From the NCBI RefSeq assembly GCF_003054195.1, contig NZ_QBKP01000009.1:145590-209589 (forward strand): DNA of 64,000 nt. Direction: 5' to 3'. Made by a program: the position numbers and the translations under genes. Of the stretch, positions 9,323-26,394 are shown piece after piece; the first letter of the stretch is position 1; every line of letters begins with the position of its first letter. This DNA comes from Gemmobacter caeni. Its GTDB lineage: Bacteria; Pseudomonadota; Alphaproteobacteria; Rhodobacterales; Rhodobacteraceae. The notes beneath the pieces were generated by a model. That model saw only the letters and a program-made list of their open reading frames with translations, ran no database searches and was not told the DNA's origin.

Positions 9323-9913
9323 ATGAAACGCTTTGCCCTGGCTGTTCTGGCCCCGCTGACGCTTGCCGCGCCTGCCTTTGCGGGTGGGCTTGCAACCCCC
9401 GCCCCGGAACCCGTGGTAACCGCTCCCGTGCCGGTCGCGCCGGTGCGCGCCGATGGCAATTGGGGCGGCGCCTACGCCGGTGCGCACCTTGGCTATGCCG
9501 ATGTGAATGACCCCAATGCCGATGGCGCCTTCGGGGGCGCGCAACTGGGTTATCGCTGGGATCTGGGCACCACCGTTCTGGGCGTCGAGGCCGATGTGTC
9601 TGGCACCAATATCAAACCCTCCGCCGGGGGCGGCAAGGTTGATACGCTGGCCCATCTGAAGCTTCAGGCGGGTTATGATTTTGGTCGCACGCTGGTTTAT
9701 GCGACGGCGGGCGCAGCCTATGCCAAGGGCGATATCGGCGGCACCAATACCTCTGACACCGGCTATTTCGGCGGGATCGGCGTGGATTATCAGGTCAACG
9801 ACCAATGGACCGTCGGCGGCGAGGTTCTGGCCCATCGCTTCGACAATTTTGACGGAACCGGGCTTGACCCCGATGCGACGACCGCGGCGCTGCGGGTCAA
9901 CTATCGCTTCTGA
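9323..9913 (+). CDS. Outer-membrane beta-barrel protein (porin/OmpW-like opacity family)
   Basis: A 196-residue secreted protein. Residues 1-21 form a signal peptide cleaved after PAFA, followed by a Pro/Val-rich spacer and then alternating aromatic strands such as [14 protein letters not shown] and [11 protein letters not shown], ending LRVNYRF with terminal Phe, the hallmark of BAM substrates. It has the eight-stranded barrel length of the Omp25/Rops family in Alphaproteobacteria. The ribosome binding site is AAGGAGA. Function beyond outer-membrane structure is not visible. Confidence 0.85.
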
Positions 9914-9935
9914 TTGCCCGTCCGGGCAAGGCAGG

Positions 9936-9963
9936 GGGCGGCGGGGCGATCCGCCGCCCTTTC
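9936..9963 (+). terminator. Intrinsic terminator after the outer-membrane protein gene
   Basis: GGGCGGCGG at 9936-9944 pairs perfectly with CCGCCGCCC at 9951-9959 around a six-base loop and is followed by TTTC. It lies 23 bases after the stop codon and 70 bases before cysS. Confidence 0.75.
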
Positions 9964-10032
9964 GCATGCGGATCAAGGTTTCCAAGCCGCCGCGAAAGCG
10001 GTAAGTCGGCGCCATCCCAAAGGGAGAGCGAC

Positions 10033-11400
10033 ATGACCACGACGATCCGCCTGCACAACACCCGCACCCGCCAGACCGAAGATCTGGTGCCGCTGATCCC
10101 CGGCAAGGTGCGCATGTATGTCTGTGGGCCGACCGTCTATGACCGTGCCCATATCGGCAATGCCCGGCCCGTGGTGGTGTTCGACACGCTGTTCCGCCTG
10201 CTGCGCCATATCTACGGCGCGGAGCACGTCACATATGTGCGCAACTTCACCGACGTCGATGACAAGATCAACGCCAAGGCCGCCCAGACCGGCCGCCCGA
10301 TCCGCGACATCACGGATGAAACGATCGGCTGGTATCACGCCGATATGGATGCGCTTGGCGCCCTGCGCCCGACGCATGAGCCGCGCGCGACCGAATATAT
10401 CGGCGCGATGATCGCCATGATTTCGGACCTGATCGACCGGGGCCATGCCTATGCCGCCGAGGGTCATGTTCTGTTCGACGTGCGCAGCTATGCCGATTAC
10501 GGCAAGCTCTCGGGTCGGTCAGTCGATGACATGATCGCCGGCGCCCGGGTCGAGGTGGCCCCCTACAAGCGCGATCCGATGGATTTCGTGCTGTGGAAGC
10601 CCTCGGATGATACGCTGCCGGGCTGGGACAGCCCGTGGGGCCGGGGTCGCCCCGGCTGGCATATCGAATGCTCGGCCATGAGCAAGGCGCTTCTGGGCGA
10701 GACCTTTGACATCCACGGCGGCGGCATCGACCTGCAATTCCCGCACCACGAGAATGAAATCGCGCAAAGCTGCTGCGCCAACCATTCCGGCCAGTTCGCG
10801 AATATCTGGATGCATAACGAGATGCTTCAGGTCGAGGGCAAGAAGATGTCGAAATCGCTCGGCAATTTCTTTACCGTCCGCGACCTGCTGGATCAGGGCT
10901 ATCCGGGCGAGGTGATCCGGTTTGTTTATCTCGGCACGCATTACGCGCGGCCGATGGACTGGACGCATGAGAAGGCGACGCAGGCCGAAGGCACGCTGCG
11001 CAAATGGCGGGCGCTGACGAAAGGCGCGCAGCCGGGGCAGGTGGCCGATGCGGTGGTGGCGGCGTTGGCGGGCGATCTGAACACCGCGGGCGCGCTTGCC
11101 GAATTGCACCGTCTGGCGGGTGAGGGCGATGCCGCGGGGCTGCTCGCCTCGGCGCAGCTTCTGGGCCTGCTGTTGCCGGAACTCGGTGGCTGGGACGAGG
11201 CCGGGGTGGATCTTGCGCCTTGGGTGAACCGTCTGGCCGGGCTGCGGGCAGAGGCGATGGAGACCAAGAACTTCGCCCCCGTCGATGCGCTGAAAACCGC
11301 GCTGATGGCGGCGGGGCTGGAGGTGCGGATGTCGAAAGCGGGGGTGGAGCTGCTGCCCGGCCCCGGTTTCGATGTGGGCAAGCTTCCGGTGCTGGAATGA
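10033..11400 (+). CDS. cysS: Cysteinyl-tRNA synthetase
   Basis: Charges tRNA-Cys. The 455-residue class I enzyme shows HIGN at residues 40-43, the zinc-ligand Cys31 in CGPTVYD and KMSKS at 271-275 within [13 protein letters not shown] 10033 follows GGGAGAG. The stop overlaps the start of the cysteine desulfurase by four bases, which ties cysteine charging and cysteine sulfur mobilisation into one transcript. Confidence 0.97.
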
Positions 11401-12449
11401 AACCGCGCGCCTATCTCGACTGGAACGCGACCACGCCGCTGCGCCCTGAGGCGCGGGCGGCGATGATCGCGGCGATGGATCTGGTGGGCAACCCCTCCTC
11501 CGTCCATGCCGAGGGGCGGGCGGCGAAATCGCTGCTGGAACGCGCGCGCGGGCAGATCGCCGCCGCGCTCGGGGCCGATGGCGCCGACATCGTGTTCACC
11601 TCGGGCGCGACCGAGGCGGCGGCGCTGGCCTGTGCCGGGCGTGACCTGCATTGCGGCGACATTGAACACGAAGCCATCAGCGCCTGGTGCACCCCCGATC
11701 TGGCGGTCGATGCGGCGGGGCAGGTGACAGTGACCGACCCGACGAAAACCGCACTGCAATATGCCAATTCCGAAACCGGCATCGTGCAGGCGCTGCCCGA
11801 GGGGCTGGCGGTCTCCGACCTGACGCAGGCTTTTGGCAAGCTGCCCTTCGCCTTCAACTGGCTGGGCTGCGACATGGGCATCGTCTCGGCCCATAAACAC
11901 GGCGGGCCAAAGGGAATCGGCGCGCTGATCCTGCGGCGCGGGCTGGATGTTCCGGCGCAGCTGAAGGGCGGCGGGCAGGAGATGGGTCGCCGCGCCGGAA
12001 CCGAGAACCTGATCGGCATTGCAGGATTCGCTGCCGCCGCCGAAGCCGCCGCGCGGGATCTTGCGGACGGGGTCTGGGAGCGGGTGGCTGAATTTAGAAA
12101 TATTCTAGAGTCAGCATTGTCAGCCGCAGAGAATGAGACTATTTCTGTCGGGAAAGGAAGTGTTCGACTTCCGAACACCCTGTGCCTCGTCACCCCCGGC
12201 TGGAAGGGCGAGACGCAGGTGATGCAGATGGATCTGGTTGGTTTCGCCGTTTCGGCGGGCTCGGCCTGTTCCTCGGGCAAGGTTCGGGCCAGCCGGGTAC
12301 TGCGCGCCATGGGGTTTGACGAGACCGCCGCCGCCTCGGCGCTGCGCGTGTCGATCGGCCCCGAGACGACGGAAGAAGATGTGTTGCGCTTTGCCGATGC
12401 CTGGACAGCGCAATACCGCAAGGCCCGCAAGCGGGCGCAAGAGGGATAA
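11397..12449 (+). CDS. Cysteine desulfurase, IscS/NifS group
   Basis: PLP enzyme that takes sulfur from cysteine for Fe-S cluster assembly. The 350-residue class V aminotransferase has the PLP lysine K167 in [10 protein letters not shown] and the catalytic Cys291 in GSACSSGK, the latter typical of the IscS-like group I rather than SufS. ATG 11397 overlaps the cysS stop. A patch of about 90 bases (12088-12180) uses A/T-rich, rare codons unlike the rest of the gene. In related genomes this gene normally follows iscR; here it follows cysS. Confidence 0.92.
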
Positions 12450-12453
12450 GGCC

Positions 12454-13974
12454 ATGACGGCACTGGAAACCGAAGACCAGATCGAAGTGCGCGACGGCGT
12501 CGACCGCGAGACGATCGAAACCGTGCAGGCCATGGCCGGCAAATACAAATACGGCTGGGAAACCAGCATCGAGACTGAATATGCGCCGAAGGGGCTGAAC
12601 GAGGATATCGTGCGCCTCATCAGCGAAAAGAACGGCGAACCGGAATGGATGCTGGAATGGCGTCTGGCCGCTTATCGCCGCTGGCTCCAGATGGAAGAAC
12701 CTCGCTGGGCCATGCTGAACTACCCGGAAATCGACTATCAGGATCAGTATTACTACGCCAAGCCGAAGAGCATGGCGGTGAAACCGAAGTCTCTGGATGA
12801 GGTCGATCCGAAGCTGCTGGCGACCTATGAGAAGCTGGGGATTCCGTTGAAGGAACAGATGCTTCTGGCCGGTGTTGAAGGTGCCGACGAGCCGCGCAAG
12901 GTCGCGGTGGACGCGGTGTTTGACAGCGTTTCCGTGGGCACGACCTTCAAGGAAGAGCTGAAGAAGGCGGGCGTCATCTTCTGCTCGATCTCTGAAGCGA
13001 TCCGCGAATACCCGGAACTGGTGAAGAAATACCTTGGCACGGTGGTGCCGCAGTCGGATAACTTCTTTGCCACGCTGAACTGTGCCGTCTTCTCGGACGG
13101 GTCGTTTGTCTACATCCCCGAGGGCGTGCGCTGCCCGATGGAACTGTCGACCTATTTCCGCATCAACGCGGAAAACACCGGGCAATTCGAACGCACGCTG
13201 ATCATCGCCGACAAGGGCGCCTATGTCAGCTATCTGGAAGGCTGCACCGCCCCGAAGCGCGATACCCACCAGCTTCATGCTGCGGTGGTGGAGATTGTGG
13301 TGCTGGACGATGCCGAGGTGAAATATTCCACCGTCCAGAACTGGTATCCGGGTGACGAGGAAGGCCGGGGTGGCATCTACAACTTCGTGACCAAACGCGC
13401 CGATTGCCGGGGTGCACGCTCCAAGGTGATGTGGACGCAGGTGGAAACCGGCAGCGCGATCACCTGGAAATACCCGTCCTGCATCCTGCGCGGCGATGAC
13501 AGCCAGGGCGAGTTCTACTCCATCGCCATCGCCAACAATGCCCAGCAGGCCGATACCGGCACCAAGATGGTGCATCTGGGCAAGAACACCAAATCCCGCA
13601 TCGTGTCGAAGGGGATTTCGGCGGGGCGCGCGCAGAATACTTACCGCGGACTGGTAAGTATGCACCCGAAGGCATTGAATTCGCGGAACTATACGCAATG
13701 CGACAGCCTGCTGATCGGGGATAAATGTGGTGCGCATACCGTGCCCTATATCGAGGTGAAGAATAATTCCTCGCGGGTGGAGCATGAGGCGACCACCTCG
13801 AAGGTTGATGACGACCAGCTCTTCTACTGCCGTTCACGCGGGATGGACGAAGAGGAGGCCGTGGCGCTGGTGGTGAACGGCTTCTGCAAGGAAGTGCTGC
13901 AAGCGCTGCCGATGGAATTCGCCATGGAGGCGCAAAGCCTCGTGGCGATCTCACTGGAAGGCTCGGTCGGATGA
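12454..13974 (+). CDS. sufB: Fe-S cluster assembly scaffold SufB
   Basis: Scaffold subunit of the SufBC2D complex where Fe-S clusters are built. The 506-residue protein matches the long SufB form, with [10 protein letters not shown] near the start and the SufB/SufD core beta-helix region including [19 protein letters not shown] and QCDSLLIGD with its Cys. ATG 12454 is four bases after the desulfurase stop. A UPF0145 gene overlaps its 3' end. Confidence 0.97.
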
Positions 13975-14285
13975 TCGTCACGACGACCCCAACCATCGAA
14001 GGCCACCGCATCACCGCCTATCACGGGCTGGTGGTCGGCGAGGTCATCATGGGCGCCAATATCGTGCGTGATCTCTTTGCCTCGATCACCGATGTGATTG
14101 GCGGACGCTCGGGCGCCTATGAAAGCAAGCTGGCCGATGCCCGCGAAGAGGCCACGAAAGAATTGAAAGACCGCGCCCGTGCAATGGGCGCCAATGCCGT
14201 TGTCGGCGTGGATCTGGACTACGAAGTGGTCGGGAATTCCATGCTCATGGTGTCGATCTCGGGCACCGCCGTGACTGTCGACTGA
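13971..14285 (+). CDS. YbjQ/UPF0145 family protein
   Basis: A 104-residue protein of the YbjQ (DUF74) family, known from structures as pentameric rings; function is not established. Family marks are the N-terminal [18 protein letters not shown] and [13 protein letters not shown]. It overlaps the sufB stop by four bases and ends 8 bases before sufC, so it is embedded in the suf operon. A role in cluster assembly or metal handling is inference from position only. Confidence 0.88.
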
Positions 14286-14293
14286 GGAAAATC

Positions 14294-15049
14294 ATGCTGG
14301 AAATCAACAATCTGCACGTCAAACTTGAAGAGGATGACAAGGTTATCCTCAAGGGCGTGAACCTCAGGGTCGAGGCGGGCAAGGTCCACGCGATCATGGG
14401 TCCGAACGGCTCGGGCAAATCGACGCTGAGCTATGTGCTCTCGGGCCGCGACGGCTATGAGGTCACCGACGGCTCCGCCACGCTGGACGGGGTGGAACTG
14501 CTGGAGATGGAGCCCGAAGAACGCGCCGCCGCCGGCCTGTTCCTTGCCTTCCAGTATCCGGTGGAAATTCCGGGCGTTGGCAACATGACCTTCCTGCGCA
14601 CCGCTGTGAACGCGCAGCGCAAGTCGCGCGGGCAAGAGGAAATGAGCGCGGGCGAGTTTCTGAAAGTCGTGCGCGAAAAGGCCAAGGCACTGAAGATCGA
14701 CGCCGAGATGATGAAGCGCCCGGTCAACGTGGGCTTCTCTGGCGGTGAGAAGAAGCGGAACGAGATCCTCCAGATGGCCATGCTGGAGCCCAAGATGTGC
14801 ATTCTGGACGAGACTGACTCCGGTCTCGACGTCGATGCGATGAAACTGGTGGCCGACGGTGTGAACGCGCTGCGCAGCGAAGGCCGTGCATTCCTTGTTA
14901 TCACGCATTATCAACGGCTTCTTGACCATATCAAACCTGACGTCGTGCACATCATGGCGGATGGCCGCATCGTGAAGACAGGCGGGCCGGAACTGGCCCT
15001 GGAAGTCGAGAACAACGGTTACGCCGACATTCTGGCCGAGGTGCTGTGA
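14294..15049 (+). CDS. sufC: SufC ATPase of the SUF complex
   Basis: ABC-type ATPase that drives the SufBCD scaffold. The 251-residue protein shows Walker A GPNGSGKST, signature FSGGEKKR and Walker B LDETDSGLD with the following H-loop TH. There are no membrane segments. The ribosome binding site is GAGGAAA. Its TGA overlaps the sufD ATG. Confidence 0.97.
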   Translation: MLEINNLHVKLEEDDKVILKGVNLRVEAGKVHAIMGPNGSGKSTLSYVLSGRDGYEVTDGSATLDGVELLEMEPEERAAAGLFLAFQYPVEIPGVGNMTFLRTAVNAQRKSRGQEEMSAGEFLKVVREKAKALKIDAEMMKRPVNVGFSGGEKKRNEILQMAMLEPKMCILDETDSGLDVDAMKLVADGVNALRSEGRAFLVITHYQRLLDHIKPDVVHIMADGRIVKTGGPELALEVENNGYADILAEVL

Positions 15050-16326
15050 TGGCGGTCGCAGAGGCGAAACGCGACGCGGCGGAGGCGCGGCTTTCCGCGC
15101 TGGCGCTGCCGCAGGGCGGATGGGCCGGGGCCGCGCGGGCCGAAGCGCTGGCGCGGCTGCGCGCCATGGGCCTGCCCGGTAGGCGGGATGAGTACTGGCG
15201 TTATACCGATCCGTCGTCGCTGGTGCAGGCAGACGCGCCCAAGGCTTCGTTGTTCGACCCGAAGGACGAGCCGATGGCCTTTACCGGGTTCGACCGGGTG
15301 AAGGTTGTCTTTGTTGACGGTGTCTTCGATCCGGCGCAATCCGACGATCTGGAAGCGGCTGGGGTTGAACTGCTCAGCCGCCAGACGGCGGATATCCACT
15401 GGGCGCAGTCGCTGTATGGTGTGCTGGAGGCACGGGGTCAGACCCCGGTGCAACGCCCGCTGGCAGCGCTGAATTCCGCTGCGGCTACAGAAGGCGTTCT
15501 GATCCGCGTTACCGGCAGGGCCGTCAAGCCTGTTTCCCTGATTTATCTGCATAAATCAGAAACTTCCGATGCGATGCTTCATCATTGTGTGAAGCTGGAG
15601 GAAGGCGCCGAGCTGACTCTGCTGGAAAACGGCCCGGCCGCCGCGCGCTTTAACAAAGTGCTGGAAGTTGAGGTCGCCGATGGCGCCCGTTTCCACCATA
15701 TCCGTACCCAGGGCCGTGATCACGAACGGCGCGCCGTGACGCATATCTTTGCCCGTCTGGGTCGGGAATCGCTGTTCAAGAGTTTCACGCTGACCGCCAA
15801 TGGCGTGCTGACGCGCAACGAGGCGGTGATCGAACTGACCGGCGATGATGCGGTGGCGCATGTGGCGGGGGCCGCGGTCGGCGATGGCGACTTCCACCAT
15901 GACGACACGGTGTTCGTGACTCATGCGGCAGAACGCTGTGAAAGCCGTCAGGTGTTCAAGAAGGTGCTGAAGAATGGCGCCGTCGGCGTGTTCCAGGGCA
16001 AGATCCTTGTGAAGCCCGGCGCGCAAAAGACGGACGGATATCAGATTTCCCAAAGTCTGCTGCTGGATGACCATTCGCAGTTCCTTGCCAAGCCCGAGCT
16101 GGAAATCTACGCCGATGACGTGAAATGCTCGCACGGGTCCACCTCGGGCGCGATTGACGAGACGGCGCTTTACTACCTGCGCTCGCGCGGGGTCCCGCTG
16201 CGTCAGGCACAATCGCTTCTGGTGCTGGCCTTCCTCGCGGAAGCCATTCAGGAGATCGAGGACGAAGGACTGGCCGAAGATATTCGTGCCCGTCTGGAAA
16301 GCTGGCTGGCGCGGCACGGGCAGTAA
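15049..16326 (+). CDS. sufD: Fe-S cluster assembly protein SufD
   Basis: Partner of SufB in the SufBC2D scaffold, needed for iron entry. The 425-residue protein has the C-terminal SufBD region: GVFQGKILVKPGAQKTDGY and KCSHGSTSGAID with the His used by the family, and LRSRGVP. ATG 15049 overlaps the sufC stop; a GTG three bases earlier would also work. It has the lower N-terminal conservation usual for SufD. Confidence 0.96.
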   Translation: MAVAEAKRDAAEARLSALALPQGGWAGAARAEALARLRAMGLPGRRDEYWRYTDPSSLVQADAPKASLFDPKDEPMAFTGFDRVKVVFVDGVFDPAQSDDLEAAGVELLSRQTADIHWAQSLYGVLEARGQTPVQRPLAALNSAAATEGVLIRVTGRAVKPVSLIYLHKSETSDAMLHHCVKLEEGAELTLLENGPAAARFNKVLEVEVADGARFHHIRTQGRDHERRAVTHIFARLGRESLFKSFTLTANGVLTRNEAVIELTGDDAVAHVAGAAVGDGDFHHDDTVFVTHAAERCESRQVFKKVLKNGAVGVFQGKILVKPGAQKTDGYQISQSLLLDDHSQFLAKPELEIYADDVKCSHGSTSGAIDETALYYLRSRGVPLRQAQSLLVLAFLAEAIQEIEDEGLAEDIRARLESWLARHGQ

Positions 16327-18078: not shown

Positions 18079-18155
18079 GCACCCATAGCTCAGCTGGATA
18101 GAGCGTTGCCCTCCGAAGGCAAAGGTCGCACGTTCGAATCGTGCTGGGTGCGCCA
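18079..18155 (+). tRNA. tRNA-Arg (anticodon CCG)
   Basis: A 77-nt cloverleaf with encoded CCA: acceptor GCACCCA pairs with TGGGTGC, the T arm holds GTTCGAATC, and stem TTGCC/GGCAA frames loop CTCCGAA, so the anticodon is CCG. It reads CGG. It lies 45 bases after sufS and marks the left border of an accessory region, a frequent role for tRNA 3' ends. Confidence 0.96.
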
Positions 18156-18831
18156 TTATCTGTAAATTCCAAGACGTTATGCTGGTCGGTTTTTCAGGCC
18201 TGGCGCCTGTAAGCCAGCTTTGGGTCAGGCATGCCATTCAGCCACACCAGCGCATATTGGCTGCAAGGCTCAGTTGCCTCGTTCGGAAGACTTGCGAGCT
18301 CTGCGAGCAATGCCAGACGAAACGGAAGAGGGGTCCTGTTCGCAAATCGGATCAAGGTCCGAAGCAAGAGCTTGCTGTGCTCGTCGCTGAAACTCCCCGA
18401 GGTTCTCCCTGAAAACCGGACAGTGACGGAAGCCGCGATCTGATCTCTGCTGGTCGCCAGGAGGGATGAGGGAGAACATATCGAAACGCCGGAAACATGA
18501 AGCGGACTCAGCCACTATCATCTATTGATATCCTGAGAATCGTGCGATCCTTAGCGTGTCTTTCATGCAGATTTTCTGGCTGCCGCAGCAGATTTCGCGC
18601 CGCCTTTCGTCACACCCTTAACGTGGCGAGGAACGGTCGGACGGCAGTCAATAGGCCCAGCGGCCGGACGTAGAGCCAAGGGTCCGCCGCATGTCAGCCG
18701 GACAGCGTCCTGAGCGAAAAAGCTGGCTTACCGGATAGGCGAAAAAAGCCATCATGTTTCGTCGTTCGTTCTTGATTAAGGTGACTTATATAGACATTGT
18801 GTCAGAAAAATTCCCAGAGGTGCATCGGCAC
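18156..18831. other. Non-coding left edge of the accessory island
   Basis: About 675 bases without a gene I can support. No integrase or tRNA-end repeat is visible. On the minus strand a frame is open from about 18800 to a stop at 18563 and ends in a basic tail (KGGAKSAAAARKSA), but it lacks a plausible start and may be the remnant of a truncated gene. The right part holds the leader of the methyltransferase gene, with an A/T-rich TATATAG at about 18787 that could be a -10 element. Confidence 0.5.
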
Positions 18832-20058
18832 ATGCAGGCTGACTTTTCCACACTTCTGGCACAAGCCGGATACTCTGTGCCCGAGGCCGCGCGCGTGCTT
18901 GGCTATTCAGAAGGCCACATCTATCGCTGGAAACGCGGTGAGGAGATCCCCCGCGACAGCGTGATCCGTCTTCTGAACATGGAGATCGAGCGGCGGCGCG
19001 ATGCAGGCGATGCGGAAAAGACCTTTACGTTCATCGACCTGTTCGCGGGGATAGGCGGCCTGCGGCGGGCAATGGAGAGCGCGGGTGGGCGCTGCATCTT
19101 CACCTCTGAATGGGACAAATACGCCCAGCAGACCTATATGGCGAACTTTCCTGACAACCGGCTTCCGGTGGGCGACATCCGGGAGGTAGACGCCGAAGAC
19201 ATCCCCGCGCATGACGTGTTGGTTGCGGGCTTTCCCTGCCAGCCCTTCTCGATCGCCGGGGTGTCCAAGAAGAACGCACTCGGCCGCGCGCATGGCTTTG
19301 ACGATGAGACCCAGGGAACGCTGTTCTTCGATGTGCTGCGCATCCTCATGCACCACCGTCCTGCGGCCTTCATGCTGGAGAACGTCAAGAATCTGAAAAG
19401 CCACGATAAGGGCCGCACCTTCGAGGTGATCCGCCGCAAGCTGACCGAGGAACTCGGTTACACACTGGAGACCCGGATCATTGATGCCGGGCATTTCGTG
19501 CCGCAACATCGCGAACGGATTGTGATGGTCGGCTTCCGTGAAGCGACCGGGTTCAGCTTCGATGACGTGCATCTTCCGACTTACGGGACCAGGCGGATGC
19601 GCCATGTTCTGCACCCTGAAAATGGCACGGAGCAGCCCGAGGGGCATTTCACCGTTGGGCCGGATGCTGTGGTCAGCGATAAATACACCCTGACCGACAA
19701 ACTTTGGGCCTATCTGCAAGGCTATGCTGCAAAGCATAAGGCCAAGGGGAATGGGTTCGGCTTTGGCATGGTCGATGGTGACAGTATCTCGCGCACGTTG
19801 TCGGCCCGCTATTACAAAGACGGTTCCGAGATTCTGATCAGTCGGGGCGAAGGCAACAATCCGCGACGCCTCACGCCTCGTGAATGTGCGCGGCTGATGG
19901 GCTACCCCGATGACTTCCGGATTCCGGTGTCTGACACTCAGGCCTACAAGCAATTCGGCAACTCGGTGGCCGTGCCTGTATTTGCCGAGGTGGCAAAAGT
20001 CATGGCACCACATATCCTCGCACTGACGAGAGCTGAACCGCTTAAGAAAGTTGGCTGA
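18832..20058 (+). CDS. DNA (cytosine-5) methyltransferase, EcoRII/Dcm type
   Basis: Methylates cytosine, probably the inner C of CCWGG by analogy with M.EcoRII and Dcm. From ATG 18832 it has 408 residues: an N-terminal helix-turn-helix (about 14-50, PEAARVLGYSEGHIYRWKRG) as in M.EcoRII, which represses its own gene, then motif I DLFAGIGG (69-76), catalytic Cys136 in GFPCQPFS, ENV (183-185), the QHRER motif and C-terminal FGNSV. ATG 18832 follows CAGAGG; the frame is open for 26 more codons upstream, but without this match. Overlaps vsr by 8 bases. The specificity is inference. Confidence 0.93.
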   Translation: MQADFSTLLAQAGYSVPEAARVLGYSEGHIYRWKRGEEIPRDSVIRLLNMEIERRRDAGDAEKTFTFIDLFAGIGGLRRAMESAGGRCIFTSEWDKYAQQTYMANFPDNRLPVGDIREVDAEDIPAHDVLVAGFPCQPFSIAGVSKKNALGRAHGFDDETQGTLFFDVLRILMHHRPAAFMLENVKNLKSHDKGRTFEVIRRKLTEELGYTLETRIIDAGHFVPQHRERIVMVGFREATGFSFDDVHLPTYGTRRMRHVLHPENGTEQPEGHFTVGPDAVVSDKYTLTDKLWAYLQGYAAKHKAKGNGFGFGMVDGDSISRTLSARYYKDGSEILISRGEGNNPRRLTPRECARLMGYPDDFRIPVSDTQAYKQFGNSVAVPVFAEVAKVMAPHILALTRAEPLKKVG

Positions 20059-20527
20059 CGTTCACGACAGCAGGACCCGCAGCCGAAACATGGCGGCAAT
20101 CAAGGGGGCTGATACCAAACCGGAAATGCTGATCCGGCGCGGGCTTCATGCGCTTGGTTACCGCTACCGTCTCTACGACCGGAAACTGCCGGGTAGACCA
20201 GACATCGTGCTGCCAAAGCATGATGCGGTGATCTTTGTGAACGGCTGCTTCTGGCATGGGCACGCTTGCCCACTTTTTCGATGGCCTGCAACACGGCAGG
20301 ATTTCTGGCGCGCCAAGATCACCGGCAACATCGAGCGGGACGCCCGGAATATCGACATGCTGATCGTTGCCGGCTGGCGTGTTGCGACGGTCTGGGAATG
20401 TGCGCTGAAGGGGCGCGGCAGGTTGCCGTCGGAGGCGGTGATTGACTCCCTTGCCCTATGGATATGTTCTGGCGACCAACGGCTGGATATCGAAGGTCAG
20501 CATACAGAAACAGGCGGCCAGATTTGA
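20051..20527 (+). CDS. vsr: Very short patch repair endonuclease Vsr
   Basis: Nicks beside T:G mismatches produced when 5-methylcytosine deaminates, so it protects the sites methylated by the preceding enzyme. The 158-residue protein starts at TTG 20051, inside the methyltransferase gene; this start is supported because MADVHDSRTRSRNM aligns with the E. coli Vsr N-terminus MADVHD...TRSKNM. Other family motifs are LPGRPD with the catalytic Asp, NGCFWHGHAC with zinc ligands, PATRQDFW and WRVATVWECAL. Its stop overlaps the start of the endonuclease. Confidence 0.95.
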   Translation: MADVHDSRTRSRNMAAIKGADTKPEMLIRRGLHALGYRYRLYDRKLPGRPDIVLPKHDAVIFVNGCFWHGHACPLFRWPATRQDFWRAKITGNIERDARNIDMLIVAGWRVATVWECALKGRGRLPSEAVIDSLALWICSGDQRLDIEGQHTETGGQI

Positions 20528-21894
20528 GCGTGCAGGGTATTTTCGATTTTGACGAGGACGGCGGCGGTCAGGCCGGGCTTCTGACGGACCTGCTCAGCCG
20601 GGCTGAGCGGGTATTGCTCAAGAAGCTCTCGAACAATGACCGTGACTGGGCGCGTTATGCCAATAAGCACCAGGCCGGGGTTTATATTCCGGCGGAACAG
20701 CGCGAGGGCGGGTTTTTTCCACCGCTGGAGGCCAAACCGCGCAAAGACCCGGATGCGGCCCCGATCCGGGAGGCCTGGTTCGATACGCTCTGGCCACAGG
20801 CTTCAGGCGATGAGCGCAATAAACATACCCGGATCGTACACTACACGAGTAAGGGCCCTGAGACGCATATGACACGCCTGCCGAAAGAGTGCTTTGAGCA
20901 TCTCTCGCCGGCTTCTTTCCTGATGATGGGGCGGTATCGGCAGGGCGAAGATACTGTCTACGAATGCCTGACCATTGATTCCGCCAGCGAGGAAGCGGAT
21001 CTGCTTCTCCTGCAGCTCGACATCACACCGGATTTCCTGATTGGTGAGTTTGAACCCGCTGAGGTCAGGGCAAAGGAACAGGACCGGGTTCTTGATTTCG
21101 CGGAAGAACTGATCGCGGCCTGGAAGGCTGGTACGATCGTCGAGTTCGGCCTCGCCCGTGCTGCCATGCCGAAAACCGAAGAACTGGCCGGGCTGGCGCG
21201 CGACCGTTACCTCGAGATCTACGGACTGACCAGCCTCGATCCCTTCGCCATCGAACGCCCGGGTGATGCGCTCCGCGAGATCAGCCGCAGTATCGAATGG
21301 GATATGTTCCGAGACTTCCAGCGCCGCGAGCGGGCCGTCGAACTGGTACGCATCGCCCTTGGCGACGCACCGCGCGACATGACCATCGCAGAGATCATCC
21401 GGCAGCTGATCAATGAACTGCCCCGGATCGACGCGCTGATGCTGTCGGCCAGCCAGCAGAGGAAATCGAGGGCGGGCTATTCCTACGAACACCATATTGA
21501 AGCGATGCTGAGCGGGGGAAAAATCCCGTTTGAAAAACAGGTCGTAATCGAGGCGAAGAAGCGCCCCGACTTCATTCTTCCCTCACTGGCCTTCATCAGC
21601 AGCGGCGAAGTCATCGCCGCAACCGGTCTGATCCTGAGTGCGAAGACCACCCTGCGCGAACGCTGGAAGCAGGTTGAGCGGGAGAAAGGCGAGCGCAGGC
21701 TTTACCTGACCACGGTCGATGAAAACATCGCGGGCAATGCCATTCAGGATATGGCAGGCATCGGCGTGCAACTGGTGATCCCCGAAAGCCTGATGGACGC
21801 CAAAGAGACCGAATACGCCGGACACGCGAATGTGCTGACCTTCCGGCGGCTCTGCGATGAAGTCATTCTGCCGAACCTGAAAGTATGGGTTTAG
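20524..21894 (+). CDS. Type II restriction endonuclease, EcoRII family
   Basis: Cuts unmodified DNA, expected at CCWGG. From TTG 20524 it has 456 residues (EcoRII has 404). The N-terminal half contains a stretch like the EcoRII B3-type effector-binding domain (HQAGVYIPAEQ, 49-59). The C-terminal catalytic domain has RKSRAG (313-318), Glu322, PD at 348-349 in KKRPDFILPS and Lys374 in SAKTTLRERWKQ, then GVQLVIPESL. The start overlaps the vsr stop (TTGA); GTG 20530 is an alternative. Weak start codons here and in vsr could keep nuclease below methylase. Confidence 0.92.
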   Translation: MSVQGIFDFDEDGGGQAGLLTDLLSRAERVLLKKLSNNDRDWARYANKHQAGVYIPAEQREGGFFPPLEAKPRKDPDAAPIREAWFDTLWPQASGDERNKHTRIVHYTSKGPETHMTRLPKECFEHLSPASFLMMGRYRQGEDTVYECLTIDSASEEADLLLLQLDITPDFLIGEFEPAEVRAKEQDRVLDFAEELIAAWKAGTIVEFGLARAAMPKTEELAGLARDRYLEIYGLTSLDPFAIERPGDALREISRSIEWDMFRDFQRRERAVELVRIALGDAPRDMTIAEIIRQLINELPRIDALMLSASQQRKSRAGYSYEHHIEAMLSGGKIPFEKQVVIEAKKRPDFILPSLAFISSGEVIAATGLILSAKTTLRERWKQVEREKGERRLYLTTVDENIAGNAIQDMAGIGVQLVIPESLMDAKETEYAGHANVLTFRRLCDEVILPNLKVWV

Positions 21895-22455
21895 CAACGA
21901 GATCGGTTTTCTGGGATAGGGTCTGCAAGGGGCCGCCCATTGCGCAGCGGAGAAATCGCTGCGTAGCGTCGTATGTATGCCTCAGTCGCGAGCGGCTTGA
22001 TCTGTGATGCCGTGTCTGCTTTCAGGGTGGTAGCTGCTGAATGTGGGTACGGCGTAGCCCTGGTTAGTTAAGCACTGTTACATCTCCACCTGATGGCAAG
22101 ATATGCCCGGAGGCGCTACCACTCTGACGATGCCGGCAGGAGGAGGGTCTCCAGGCCCGCGGCACTGCCTTGAGGGCCGAGCCCTCTGCGCTCACCGACC
22201 AGAAAGCTTTGTCTTGGGCTGATGCAGGCGTCGGCTGGTGTTCTTGCGGAAGGTGTTGCGGAGACCGTTGCAATCAGGCGGGGTCCATATACCATCCACA
22301 CAGGACGTTCGCCGCGCTTGTCACGAATGACTGCAGTGCGTCAAGAGAACCAGAATTTATTTAGTACATGTTGAGAATATGTTGTGTGAGGACCGCGCTT
22401 GAGGGCCTTAGGTTACTTGCCCACTGCCTTGGGGTGGTGGGGTTTAGTCTTTCGG
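21895..22455. other. Gene-free stretch between convergent restriction and DUF6119 genes
   Basis: About 560 bases. No frame has a credible start, ribosome binding site or family match. Both neighbouring genes end into it, so it may hold terminators or the scar of an earlier insertion, but I see no long hairpin with a T run, no transposase fragment and no repeat array. Confidence 0.5.
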
Positions 22456-24111
22456 TTATTCTATAACCTCCGCATCCTCTTCAGCGGCTTTCTTGGATCG
22501 TTTTGCTTTCGCCTTTGCGCCAGACTTCGGCTTCTCGATCCAGGCGAAAGCCCATTTGTAGCCGAGCGCGTGCAATTCGCGCGCAGCCTGGCGGAACGAC
22601 ACCAAGCTGAAGAAGGGGAGTTTCGGCTTATCAGATGCAGCAATGACGCTGTAGACGACGGTGAAATCACCACGGGTGAAGTCATTCCCGGAATTCGGAA
22701 TGATGTCCTGGTAGCCGGTCTGTCCGGTTTCAGCCTGGACTGCGATCACTTCGTTCCGAACGCTGTCGCGCGACGGTGGGTCGGTCGCGAGGACACGTGC
22801 GGAGACGGTCCCTTGGCTGAAAAGGTGACTGAGTCGAGACGAGGACGTCTTGTCCTTAACGTGGATCAGTTGACGCTCACGGCCGAGAAAGTCGCAAGCT
22901 TCGATCTTGCTCGCCGCACCTGTTGGCTTGATGAGCCGACGGTCTAAGCAGATCATGTCCGCATCCAGACCGGCGACACGCTTGTTGTAGGTCTCTTCTG
23001 TCTCGTCAGCCTCAGCGGCAGGCATGTCGACCTTGCTTGTCATGTCGAAAAAATCCTGTACCTCTTTGGCGAGGTTCTGGTCAATCTGGTACCAGCGGCC
23101 TCCAGAGAAGACGTAGGTCGTGCCATCGAGTTCTGTTTCGAACACGATGCATTCCCGCAACTTCCACTTCCCACCACAGTCGTGGCCATCATCATCGACT
23201 TCGTGGACGGTGTGATTGCGGAGGTCCTCGTCCGAATAGCCGGCTTTCTCGCGCTCCTTCAATGCGTCGAGGTAACCGGGCAAGTCGAGGTCGGCATAAA
23301 GCTGCCAGCTGCGAAAACCCTTGTAGCGGATGAGGCTTGATTTCTCAGGGTCGTAAATGACCGGAAACGCGAGGTGAATACCGTCGGTCTCGCCTTCGTC
23401 AACCGCCTTCGCCAAAGCTTCAACCAGCCTGGCGTCCAGCTTGTCGATCAATTCTTGCTCGCGGATGTGGCGAATCTGGTCGATCCATCCGAAGTCGGTC
23501 TTGTAGTCGGTCTTCTGGTAGATTGCATACGTGTCCGCGCAAGCCTTGGCGAGTTCCGCAATCTCAAGCTTTCGGTTGAGCGTCAGGCCGTCGGTCCCCG
23601 CCACATAGGAGCCGAAGCCTGCATCCTTGGGCGTCCCCGCCAGACCACGGACAAGGTCACGCTCGATGTCGATGGCGAAGGCAGTCTGATCGGAGCCCCG
23701 GCTGGTCTGCGTACGGCGGGAAAGGGTATTCTCATCCGGTGTCCGAACGTCCGCGCTTTTTAACTGCTTCGGGTCAACCGAGTTGAGAACGACCCGAAGC
23801 CCAAAATCCTGCTCGAACGCCGCAGGATCAAGCTTGACGTGACCCATGCCAAAAGACACGGCGAACCAGCGCCCTGACGCCTGGACGAACACGAGTCCGA
23901 AGGCTGTGTGGTTGAAAACCTTCTTCTTCTCGTCTTCTGACAGTTCGAGAAATCCCGCCCATTTCGGCGCACCGCCGCCGAGCGTTGCCAATGAAATGAG
24001 TGCGCCTTCCAGCTTGTCCCATGGTGTTAGGTCTACACCGTCGCGCACTGCGTCAGCGGGGGCGAGGCGATCTCGAAGTAGGCGAATTGAAAGCTTCTGA
24101 GTATTGCTCAT
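22456..24111 (-). CDS. DUF6119/TIGR04141-type sporadically distributed protein
   Basis: A 551-residue soluble protein. The N-terminal LSIRLLRD, the mid-region GFVFVQ-like segment with HTAFGLVFVQ and a C-terminal end reading PFFSLVSFRQAARELHALGY (cited as FFSLVSF and LGYKWAFAWI) match what I recall of TIGR04141/DUF6119, a patchily distributed bacterial family of about this length. The last 25 residues are Lys/Ala-rich. It begins four bases inside the preceding gene, so the two are co-translated. The function is unknown; neighbouring restriction genes suggest phage defence. Base composition is visibly lower in G+C than in the flanking core genes. Confidence 0.7.
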   Translation of the reverse strand: MSNTQKLSIRLLRDRLAPADAVRDGVDLTPWDKLEGALISLATLGGGAPKWAGFLELSEDEKKKVFNHTAFGLVFVQASGRWFAVSFGMGHVKLDPAAFEQDFGLRVVLNSVDPKQLKSADVRTPDENTLSRRTQTSRGSDQTAFAIDIERDLVRGLAGTPKDAGFGSYVAGTDGLTLNRKLEIAELAKACADTYAIYQKTDYKTDFGWIDQIRHIREQELIDKLDARLVEALAKAVDEGETDGIHLAFPVIYDPEKSSLIRYKGFRSWQLYADLDLPGYLDALKEREKAGYSDEDLRNHTVHEVDDDGHDCGGKWKLRECIVFETELDGTTYVFSGGRWYQIDQNLAKEVQDFFDMTSKVDMPAAEADETEETYNKRVAGLDADMICLDRRLIKPTGAASKIEACDFLGRERQLIHVKDKTSSSRLSHLFSQGTVSARVLATDPPSRDSVRNEVIAVQAETGQTGYQDIIPNSGNDFTRGDFTVVYSVIAASDKPKLPFFSLVSFRQAARELHALGYKWAFAWIEKPKSGAKAKAKRSKKAAEEDAEVIE

Positions 24112-25448
24112 TCAGCGGCCTCCATTTCGGACGCGTGAGGAGGCGAGGTGTGCTTGATGGCGATCGTGACGGTCTTCCCTGTTTCCAGCACCTGCCGGAC
24201 AATCTCGCTGAGTACAGCGGATTGCTCTATCGACGTGCCTACCCACGATCCAGCTACGAGCCCGACAAACTCCGAATTGTTGATTCGACGACCGACGTTC
24301 TTGAAGGTCAGAACCTTGCCGCCGCGCGGTCCCTTGAACAGACCAGCGGCATCCGCTCGTTTCCATAAATCGAGAGGCAGATAGATACCCTTGAAGAGTC
24401 CCTTGTCGTCGGGGTTGAAGACGACGCGCGGACAGAACTTTAGGAAAAACGGATTGTCCGAGAAGCGGAACCCATCAGGGTGCTCACCGCTTGGGAGCTT
24501 CCTGAGCTCGGCCAGTAGGGTTTCCATCCGCTGAACTTCGTCGCAGAACTGATCCTTCGCCCGCCAACGAAATTCCACCTCGTCTTCGCGCTTCTCCATC
24601 GCCTTGTATTGGACCATCACGAAGCTGCGGTAGGCTTCGTTGAAGTAGATGAGGTCGGCGCCAGTCTGTTGTTCGAGGGGCAGACGGTTGGCCATGATCA
24701 CCGTCAACCGCTTCGACGAATCCTCTTCGCTCGCGAACACCTTCGAGCCGTAGTGGGTGGTCTCGCCCATAGCTTCAAAGCCCGGCACGGTCGAGAAGTC
24801 GGACAAAAGCATAGCATCTTCCCGAACCTGTGCGCCCGGCAGTCCATCAAGGAAGGATTGCTGTGAAGCGTCCGTCGGGGTCCACGCCAAAAGGTCATCT
24901 CGCGACATGCCAGCAATCTCGAGTGCGAGGCCGAGCGTTTCCTTCTGGTAGGCGAGGTTTTCGCGGGCACGGGGCTCGAGCCGCCGCAGCGCTTGGGCGC
25001 GGCGCTCGGAATAGCGCGCAAGGCGTGGGCTGACGGTCTCATCGAGTTGCGTGATACGATCAACAAATGCGCCGAGCGACTTTGGTGGGAGCAGGCCGCC
25101 TGTTTCCAAGCGTTGCTTGACGTGCCGGGCAACGCGTATGTCGATACCAGCAAGGATCTCATCGAAGCTCACGGGCCGCTTCAGCGGTTGGAGTTCTTCG
25201 AGATTCAGCCGGACGAGGCCTGTGCCCGCTGACTGTCCTTTTCGTCCGCCGGCGATGTGAGTGATGAAGCCATCCTCGAAGGACGCGAAGACGGCAAGCG
25301 GCGCGCGACGGCTGTGGTCGAAGCGCGGAACAGGTTCCGAGACAAAGGGTTTCGGCGAATAAAACGAACCGCCATGTTCGGCTTCGTTGAGCAGCAACTC
25401 TCTCCTTTGCTTCGGGACCCGAAGAATGTAGCCACCAGCCGCCACCAT
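24108..25448 (-). CDS. Unrecognised protein with possible PD-(D/E)xK-like nuclease core
   Basis: I do not recognise the family. From ATG 25448, which follows AAGGA at nine bases, it has 446 residues; an ATG at 25502 would add 18 but lacks a ribosome binding site. No signal or membrane segment is seen. Residues 140-175 are charged and helical. Around 259-282 the order Glu259 (LPLEQQ), Gly-Ala-Asp265 (TGADLIYF) and Gln280-x-Lys282 (MVQYK) resembles the core of PD-(D/E)xK nucleases of the Mrr type, where QxK replaces ExK. It is the first gene of an operon with the DUF6119-type gene (ATGA overlap). The nuclease assignment is inference. Confidence 0.6.
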   Translation of the reverse strand: MVAAGGYILRVPKQRRELLLNEAEHGGSFYSPKPFVSEPVPRFDHSRRAPLAVFASFEDGFITHIAGGRKGQSAGTGLVRLNLEELQPLKRPVSFDEILAGIDIRVARHVKQRLETGGLLPPKSLGAFVDRITQLDETVSPRLARYSERRAQALRRLEPRARENLAYQKETLGLALEIAGMSRDDLLAWTPTDASQQSFLDGLPGAQVREDAMLLSDFSTVPGFEAMGETTHYGSKVFASEEDSSKRLTVIMANRLPLEQQTGADLIYFNEAYRSFVMVQYKAMEKREDEVEFRWRAKDQFCDEVQRMETLLAELRKLPSGEHPDGFRFSDNPFFLKFCPRVVFNPDDKGLFKGIYLPLDLWKRADAAGLFKGPRGGKVLTFKNVGRRINNSEFVGLVAGSWVGTSIEQSAVLSEIVRQVLETGKTVTIAIKHTSPPHASEMEAAE

Positions 25449-25846
25449 CGTTTTATGTCCTTCTTCGTAGAGCGGGCGCCAAAGCAAAAAACTCCAAAGC
25501 ATTAAGGCTTACGGCTAGCCGGAAAAGACTCGAGATAATAATCCAATAAGCTTGACTTGTATTGATCGCGTCCGCAACTAACTTTGGTCTTCGCGCTCAC
25601 TCGAAATAATTTGAAAGTACCCAGGGTCTGCTTTTCGGATGTCGCGTTGCAGAGACTCCGGCTATGGCCAATGTCCGCGATGGGCCGGAGGCGTAGATAT
25701 TCAAGCGTGCAGAATCCTCCTTGCCCTGAATAAGTTCCCACCGGGTTTCATACGGATTTTGGCAGTCCGTTCCCACCCTGAACGGGGCAGGTCGGGTCAC
25801 TCTATGTGCAGGCCTGATCAGGCGACGATGTCCGCGTCACCCGGCC

Positions 25847-26140
25847 TCAGCCGGACCCAAGCGAAAGCAGCGCGCGACGAAATTCCGGCTCGCTTAGCAC
25901 CACCTCGCCCGCACCAAGCGCCTCGGCGTGGCTGAGGGCGCGGGCGGTTAGGGTCTGGGCGGTCTCGATGGCGCGGGGCAGGGCAAGGCCCCGCCCGATG
26001 GCCGACAACGGGATGGCTGGCGTTTCGACTTCCATCATCTTCACCAGAAGTCCGGGGCACTGTCGCCCTTCAAGCGGTTTGCCTTCGAGCTTTGCGACAT
26101 CATCCGGCGGCAGCCGCTGCCGGGCCGAGCGCTGGACGCA
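25847..26140 (-). pseudogene. Fragment of an unrecognised gene
   Basis: A minus-strand frame stays open to the stop at 25847 and codes a protein-like sequence (DDVAKLEG, LLVKMMEVETP, RAIETAQTL, VVLSEPEFRRALLSLG). Upstream it hits a stop near 26145, and continuation seems to need a frameshift. A GTG at 26044 could start a 65-residue product, but no ribosome binding site supports it. I read it as the 3' remnant of a broken gene; the family is unknown. Confidence 0.3.
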
Positions 26141-26214
26141 GCTCGATCGTCAGTTGCTGCGGGATGCGGGGCGTTCGCGCATCCTCGACATGGCGCCGGA
26201 TGCGGATCGGCACC

Positions 26215-26394
26215 ATAGCCGATTTCCGCAATGGCGCGGACCGGATTGATCTTGGGGATGGCCTGCGGTTCTGCGATGTGAACGAGACCTCGATCCCCGG
26301 CGTGGTCCGGCTGACTTTCGACGGGGCGCCGGGGCTGTCGCTCACCGTCATGGGGATCACGGCCGCGCAGCTTGGGGCCGAGGATTTCCTCTGA
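26215..26394 (+). pseudogene. Remnant of an RTX/hemolysin-type C-terminus
   Basis: The translated end reads IADFRNGADRIDLGDG, then VRLTFDGAPGLSLTV and ends ITAAQLGAEDFL. The pattern of an ADxIDL strand followed by a final QLxAEDF-like end is typical of the C-terminal part of RTX and peptidase-M10-type calcium-binding proteins. No GGxGxDxLx repeats precede it; upstream the frame is a meaningless Arg/Ser-rich sequence, so the rest of the gene has been lost. Confidence 0.35.

Follow-up and report, generated by a model that had tools for sequence, protein, structure and literature searches.

An overlapping gene pair of Gemmobacter caeni encoding a predicted reader-nuclease fusion and a second predicted nuclease, a possible modification-dependent restriction unit

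Our analysis of a 64,000-nucleotide stretch of the Gemmobacter caeni genome (contig NZ_QBKP01000009.1, positions 145,590 to 209,589), here referred to as the window, focused on two overlapping minus-strand genes, designated A and B. The predicted product of gene A is a nuclease that carries a modified-base reader, and that of gene B is a second nuclease. With moderate confidence, we propose that the two proteins form a unit of modification-dependent, type IV-like restriction, in which a reader-nuclease is joined by a second nuclease. Sequence comparisons established that the genes form a block with a conserved overlap, that candidate catalytic residues are conserved, that both genes are under purifying selection, and that relatives lie in type I, bacteriophage exclusion (BREX)-like, and Gabija settings. 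Both nuclease folds and the reader fold are model-based predictions, and we infer modified DNA as the target, cooperation between A and B, and a role in phage defense. An earlier reading of this stretch (the original prediction) is partly supported by these results; it had missed the predicted PUA-superfamily reader of A and the predicted nuclease in B.

Layout and mobility of the A-B block

From its first ATG, gene A would span 24108-25502(-), and a later ATG, the one adopted in the original prediction, shortens it to 24108-25448(-). The later start is favored because the best-ranked A relatives are approximately 446 amino acids in length, because a ribosome-binding-like AGAAGGAC precedes this ATG, and because the homology of the window to three relatives (L002, L003, and L005) starts exactly there. 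The four-base overlap between the A stop and the B start, recognized in the original prediction, was confirmed. When compared with six block relatives, gene A yielded ratios of nonsynonymous to synonymous substitution rates (dN/dS) of 0.085-0.140 and gene B ratios of 0.053-0.097, and both are thus real coding genes under purifying selection. Promoter and terminator scans of the locus gave no more than shuffles give. The window's genome contains one match to A, and among 11 genomes of the genus only the window's own carries the gene.

The A-B block was found in eight copies (the window, L001-L005, L007, and L030) in at least four different surroundings, all with the ATGA overlap. Compared with L002 (Mesorhizobium), L003 (Stappia), and L005 (Pleomorphomonas), the window is homologous from the ATG of gene A onward, and compared with L007 (Croceicoccus) from 19 bases before it; in all four comparisons, the homology stops at 22443-22449, i.e., 7-13 bases beyond the B stop, and identity amounts to 93-95%. 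The flanks of these four copies are unlike those of the window, except for the tRNA in L005, and since L002, L003, and L007 have flanks in common, they count as one setting. The copy of Rhodovulum visakhapatnamense (L001) is 99.8% identical to the window and possibly represents the same locus. Together with L004 (Paracoccus) and L030 (Paracoccus plasmid pAMI8), it has a slightly longer block in common with the window, from 22303 to 25526 or 25562. The recurrence of one block in different surroundings supports the earlier suggestion that the pair is mobile.

Predicted domains of the two proteins

As originally anticipated, the A protein matched no family in Pfam, NCBIfam, or PADLOC (the last at E 1). 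It also matched no PDB sequence at E 1, and the PDB and Pfam sequence searches with A yielded nothing useful. The relatives of A comprise at least 1,227 protein clusters. The predicted fold of residues 1-140 matches EVE, ASCH, or YTH domains, which points to the PUA superfamily; these three families were absent among the Pfam matches of 54 A members (E 0.1), and no conserved W or Y pocket was seen in the predicted reader domain. Residues 235-300 are the most conserved of five stretches compared and follow the helix-strand-strand order of PD-(D/E)xK nucleases, with E259 within helix 257-262, D265 beside strand 266-270, and QYK282 within strand 275-287. The original prediction had singled out Glu259, GAD (263-265), and QxK (280-282); all of these residues occupy the named positions, and the proposed nuclease core is supported by the model together with the conservation of the Glu, the Asp, and the (D/E/Q)xK motif (Table 1). 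Conservation was counted in alignment A2 (n = 54; the window, 33 of the best 120 A clusters listed, and 20 frames from A loci) and in alignment A4 (n = 16; L082 and L083, which are diverged, and the plasmid hits H2, H3, H4, and H8 were left out); alignment A3 (n = 48) comprised the window, 46 of the best 120 in a separate listing, and L009. On the basis of the model, the predicted product of gene A is thus a nuclease with a modified-base reader attached. A PADLOC scan of the 54 members returned JetB2 in two of them (best E 0.0027) and two single weak matches, all dismissed as chance. Two A paralogues lie near each other in L027 (5566-7056 and 8001-9314), the first with Ser at the equivalent of Asp265.

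The family assignment originally given to gene B was borne out by profile search. The protein matched DUF6119 (PF19614) with an E value of 6e-153 (510.6 bits, cut-off 27; profile 1-524 of 524) and TIGR04141 with an E value of 1.5e-132 (442.8 bits, cut-off 35; profile 46-516 of 516), both full-length matches over the curated cut-offs. Pfam gives the function of DUF6119 as unknown, the NCBIfam title names no role, and no paper bearing on the family was found in the open-licence literature; the term itself occurs once in a wheat gene-family paper. The C-terminal region of B is predicted to form a second PD-(D/E)xK nuclease, with conserved acidic residues and an xK motif in the core order: E372 in helix 372-380, D407 adjacent to strand 408-410, and K419 in strand 414-419. 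The 32 rows counted include L003 but no other near-identical copy, nor L073, in which no match to B was obtained by tblastn. Searches of B against PDB sequences gave chance-level matches only, no viral model reached an E value below 0.001 in the structure search, PADLOC gave no match at E 1, and the N-terminal part of approximately 350 residues had no fold match among the matches listed. Gene duplication was considered as the source of the pair; a profile comparison of A with B showed no relation, and by that test the pair did not arise in this way.

Table 1. Positions of the gene pair, its predicted domains and candidate residues, and neighboring features in the window
Feature	Position	Strand	Remark
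Gene A	24108-25448	-	446 amino acids; predicted PUA-superfamily reader and PD-(D/E)xK nuclease; matches no known family
Gene B	22456-24111	-	551 amino acids; DUF6119/TIGR04141 protein
ATGA overlap, A stop/B start	24108-24111	-	4 bases; identical in L001-L005, L007, L030
A residues 1-140, predicted EVE/ASCH/YTH-like (PUA superfamily) domain	25029-25448	-	model
A residues 235-300, predicted PD-(D/E)xK core	24549-24746	-	secondary-structure order and conservation
A Glu259, candidate helix-A catalytic residue	24672-24674	-	54/54 and 16/16 alignment rows
A Asp265, candidate metal ligand	24654-24656	-	53/54 and 15/16 rows
A Q280-Y281-K282, QxK motif	24603-24611	-	Q280 and K282 in 54/54 and 16/16 rows
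B residues 371-528, predicted PD-(D/E)xK domain	22528-23001	-	
B Glu372	22996-22998	-	32/32 rows
B Asp407	22891-22893	-	32/32 rows
B H417-V-K419, HxK motif	22855-22863	-	K419 in 32/32, H417 in 30/32 rows
hsdR-like trace after B stop, possible remnant	22449-22455	-	7 bases equal to the hsdR coding start in type I-embedded copies
EcoRII-type cassette (context, outside the pair)	18754-21894	+	C5 methyltransferase, Vsr, restriction endonuclease
C5 methyltransferase	18754-20058	+	
Vsr	20051-20527	+	
Restriction endonuclease of the cassette	20458-21894	+	
tRNA-Arg(ccg)	18079-18155	+	on the side faced by the B 3' end

The architecture of A is of an already known kind. Modification-dependent restriction enzymes commonly take the form of a PUA-superfamily sensor fused to a nuclease and come with no accompanying methyltransferases (PMC7897488), and EVE-PD(D/E)XK fusions have been predicted to be type IV enzymes (PMC7641849); these and the following comparisons refer to excerpts of the cited papers. 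A fits this reader-nuclease architecture, with a family that the libraries used do not recognize. As predicted for A, the EVE-PD(D/E)XK and EVE-HNH type IV enzymes, including VcaM4I, have an N-terminal PUA-superfamily domain followed by a nuclease, and like the A-B pair they form units lacking a methyltransferase and occur in defense islands (PMC7641849, PMC7897488). However, VcaM4I has an HNH nuclease in place of PD-(D/E)xK with QxK and, unlike the EVE enzymes, A is not detected by Pfam as EVE, has no visible pocket with a conserved W or Y, shares an overlap with a second nuclease-type gene, and is found next to Gabija as well as within type I and BREX-like operons. Among its EVE-PD(D/E)XK fusions, the EVE survey (PMC7641849) may contain A relatives. 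MspJI (SRA plus PD-(D/E)XK; PMC7897488) also joins reader and nuclease in one chain, but it belongs to another branch of the PUA superfamily and was not among the PDB sequence-search matches. For B, the comparison is with HamA of Hachiman (DUF1837; PMC12278908), whose D-E(X)K stands in the place of D407 and HxK of B, and which pairs with the helicase HamB, whereas B carries its own N-terminal part.

Placement among defense genes and rival readings

We collected 28 genome loci of A, and 16 of them harbor type I or other defense-type genes, in agreement with the defense neighbors noted originally; restriction or other defense genes stand beside many relatives. Type I genes lie near A in four loci (L002, L003, L007, and L008), BrxC precedes and PglX follows A in six (L012-L017), GajAB adjoins A in two (L018 and L024), and other defense-type genes occur in four (L010, L020, L023, and L026). 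Three further loci are on contigs shorter than 6 kb (L001, L006, and L022), and in the remaining nine no defense genes were found with a small, hand-made tblastn reference set, so that finding nothing is a weak negative. It should be noted that the counts have no matched control, that some loci are close relatives, and that the PADLOC scans of neighbors covered 20 hand-chosen genes. In the BrxC/PglX loci, which we take to be BREX type 3, the gaps from A to the adjoining frames range from -8 to +11 bases (downstream gap of L013 not included). GajAB also adjoins A on two plasmids (L031 and L032), and diverged GajAB lies near the A copies L082 and L083.

In L002, L003, and L007, A and B are embedded in a type I operon, in which hsdM is followed by a PDC-S14 candidate, hsdS, A, B, hsdR, and a SprT-like gene; A begins on the final base of hsdS, and the B stop overlaps the hsdR start (ATGA). 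The window has ATAA at the B stop followed by CCGAAAG, seven bases identical to hsdR bases of L003, which is a short trace. In L005, 34 bases past the B stop are homologous to L003, no hsdR was found within its 17 kb by tblastn with hand-made references, and a tRNA-Arg(ccg) gene lies 340 bases past B. These traces, from which the direction of movement is read, would fit a block that was released by a type I operon and entered a tRNA-Arg site. Gene B alone occupies the same slot elsewhere: the hsdS-B-hsdR arrangement is exact, with 4-base B/hsdR overlaps, in L035, L036, L086, and L092, and in L076 the hsdR match begins 12 bases past the B stop. Overall, type I genes lie within approximately 8 kb in 3 of 16 other DUF6119 genome loci (L066, L075, and L076), with none found in the other 13 by the references used, and they occur in 6 of the 15 DUF6119 plasmid or phage records examined (30 were found), 4 of which are hsdS-B-hsdR.

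In the favored reading, A would use its predicted PUA-superfamily domain to flip a base out for inspection, and on a modification foreign to the host, the attached PD-(D/E)xK domain (E259, D265, and QYK282) would cut. B (E372, D407, and HVK419) would contribute a second cleavage, either acting separately on the DNA that A cuts or joined to A in a complex, and phages whose altered bases defeat the neighboring methylation-based restriction would be caught. The position of A beside methylation-based systems makes sense if A removes phages that those systems miss. The block itself has no methyltransferase, and those of other systems are nearby in many loci; A would have to spare the neighbors' marks, which suggests unusual phage bases or special contexts as its target.

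What weighs against this cooperation, and against the two-component module of the original prediction, is that homologues of A and B mostly occur apart, an outcome that the original prediction had itself named as refuting and that is largely borne out. Of the 28 A loci, seven have a B relative next to A (six close, and one distant and head to head). A was found in 3 of 289 genomes of the class and 4 of 398 of the phylum, B in 9 and 11, respectively, and both together only in the window's own genome. These samples speak against the obligatory pair that we initially expected; the pair is one arrangement of two separable modules that are also found apart, often in or near defense operons. A search of viral contigs with a pattern-based method gave no A or B relatives. 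Phage records yielded no gene A and one DUF6119 gene, in the Pseudomonas phage record vB_PaeS-D14B (L039 5797-7506), where it lies close to the end of the genome and next to an integrase gene.

A tentative extension, which we consider somewhat unlikely, is that A-B is a detachable nuclease module plugged between hsdS and hsdR to give a dual-specificity machine destroying both unmodified and disguised-base DNA; it would leave the operon as a block and work alone, and each half would also serve on its own in BREX-like, Gabija, and type I settings. If so, DUF6119 would be an unrecognized nuclease subunit of restriction operons.

An unlikely alternative is that A and B are accessory subunits of type I restriction, acting on HsdR-translocated DNA or replacing the nuclease step, and that the window copy is a freed derivative without its partner. 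The A-B and B-only insertions between hsdS and hsdR, including the overlaps with hsdR, the nearby hsdR match of L076, and the hsdR-like trace kept in the window, all speak for it. However, both genes are open in copies outside type I operons (the window, L001, L004, L005, and L030), and the dN/dS values of the window genes (0.05-0.14) suggest that they are useful without HsdR. Moreover, solo A sits instead inside BREX-like loci and beside Gabija, and the references used detected no type I genes in most of the DUF6119 genome loci.

Slightly less probable, in our judgment, are two independent single-gene defenses hitchhiking on one mobile block. The occurrence of A and B alone in or near defense operons and their co-occurrence limited to one sampled genome are as this reading expects; the same overlap kept in eight copies across at least four surroundings is not, nor is L009, where a distant A (54%) and a distant B stand head to head. 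An abortive-infection or toxin-antitoxin-like unit, in which one protein restrains the other's nuclease until infection, is improbable: overlapping genes, defense neighbors, and known partner-restrained nuclease effectors such as HamA held by HamB (PMC12278908, in excerpt) favor it, but many loci and genomes contain A without B or B without A, which hardly suits an antidote-dependent toxin, and with nuclease-type residues in both, neither looks like a plain antidote.

Insertions of this kind have published parallels. DarTG2 of the RRDM island (PMC12255303) is likewise an extra defense unit between hsdS and hsdR; it is a toxin-antitoxin system, whereas A-B comprises two predicted nucleases and also occurs outside type I operons. 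The auxiliary PD-(D/E)XK nucleases of BREX loci (PMC12839542) resemble A as extra nucleases in or next to a BREX operon; the main text of that paper does not mention DUF6119, and part 1 of its section 35 names no PUA-PD-(D/E)xK fusion. In the open-licence literature, we found neither the A family, nor its split use across type I, BREX-like, and Gabija settings, nor a mobile DUF6119 pair or a nuclease role for DUF6119, although an earlier mention is possible. The predictions offer a testable enzymatic role for DUF6119 and for the unnamed A family. With the pair present as a block inside and outside restriction operons, the capture of phages with disguised DNA is directly testable, and new modification-dependent cutters would be useful as base-mapping reagents.

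Several neighbors of A and B were recorded in passing. The PDC-S14 genes are PADLOC candidates located at 5894-6832 in L003 and 4645-5583 in L007. In L032 (a Pelagibacterium plasmid, 9454-15206), the GajA match beside A is interrupted by a stretch with two transposase genes. A 621-amino-acid protein is encoded upstream of A in four loci (L018 5306-7171, L019 1639-3504, L025 6053-7918, and L031 6124-7989), two of them with GajAB; it is 85-99% alike across them and had no PADLOC match in L018.

Surroundings of the pair in the window

The EcoRII-type cassette that the original prediction had placed on the opposite strand is present, although only the EcoRII C-terminal domain of its restriction endonuclease (residues 314-463) scored above the Pfam cut-off, the preceding part having no match above a cut-off. 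The lower G+C content held against the direct surroundings, with 0.56-0.59 in every 1-kb step between 18 and 26 kb (eight steps) and 0.63-0.64 before and 0.64-0.69 after them; it is not unique to this stretch, as a few other steps of the window, e.g., at 33-36 kb, are equally low. The low-G+C stretch begins beside tRNA-Arg(ccg). A search for direct repeats for excision revealed, among the matches listed, no copy of the tRNA end on the far side. Relatives within the genus have the tRNA-Arg and guaB stretches on separate contigs or far apart, and therefore no empty site could be defined. At the edge of the low-G+C stretch, a plus-strand open reading frame (26092-26394) without a Pfam match encodes a protein whose end resembles the C-terminus of secreted proteins of the RTX or serralysin type.
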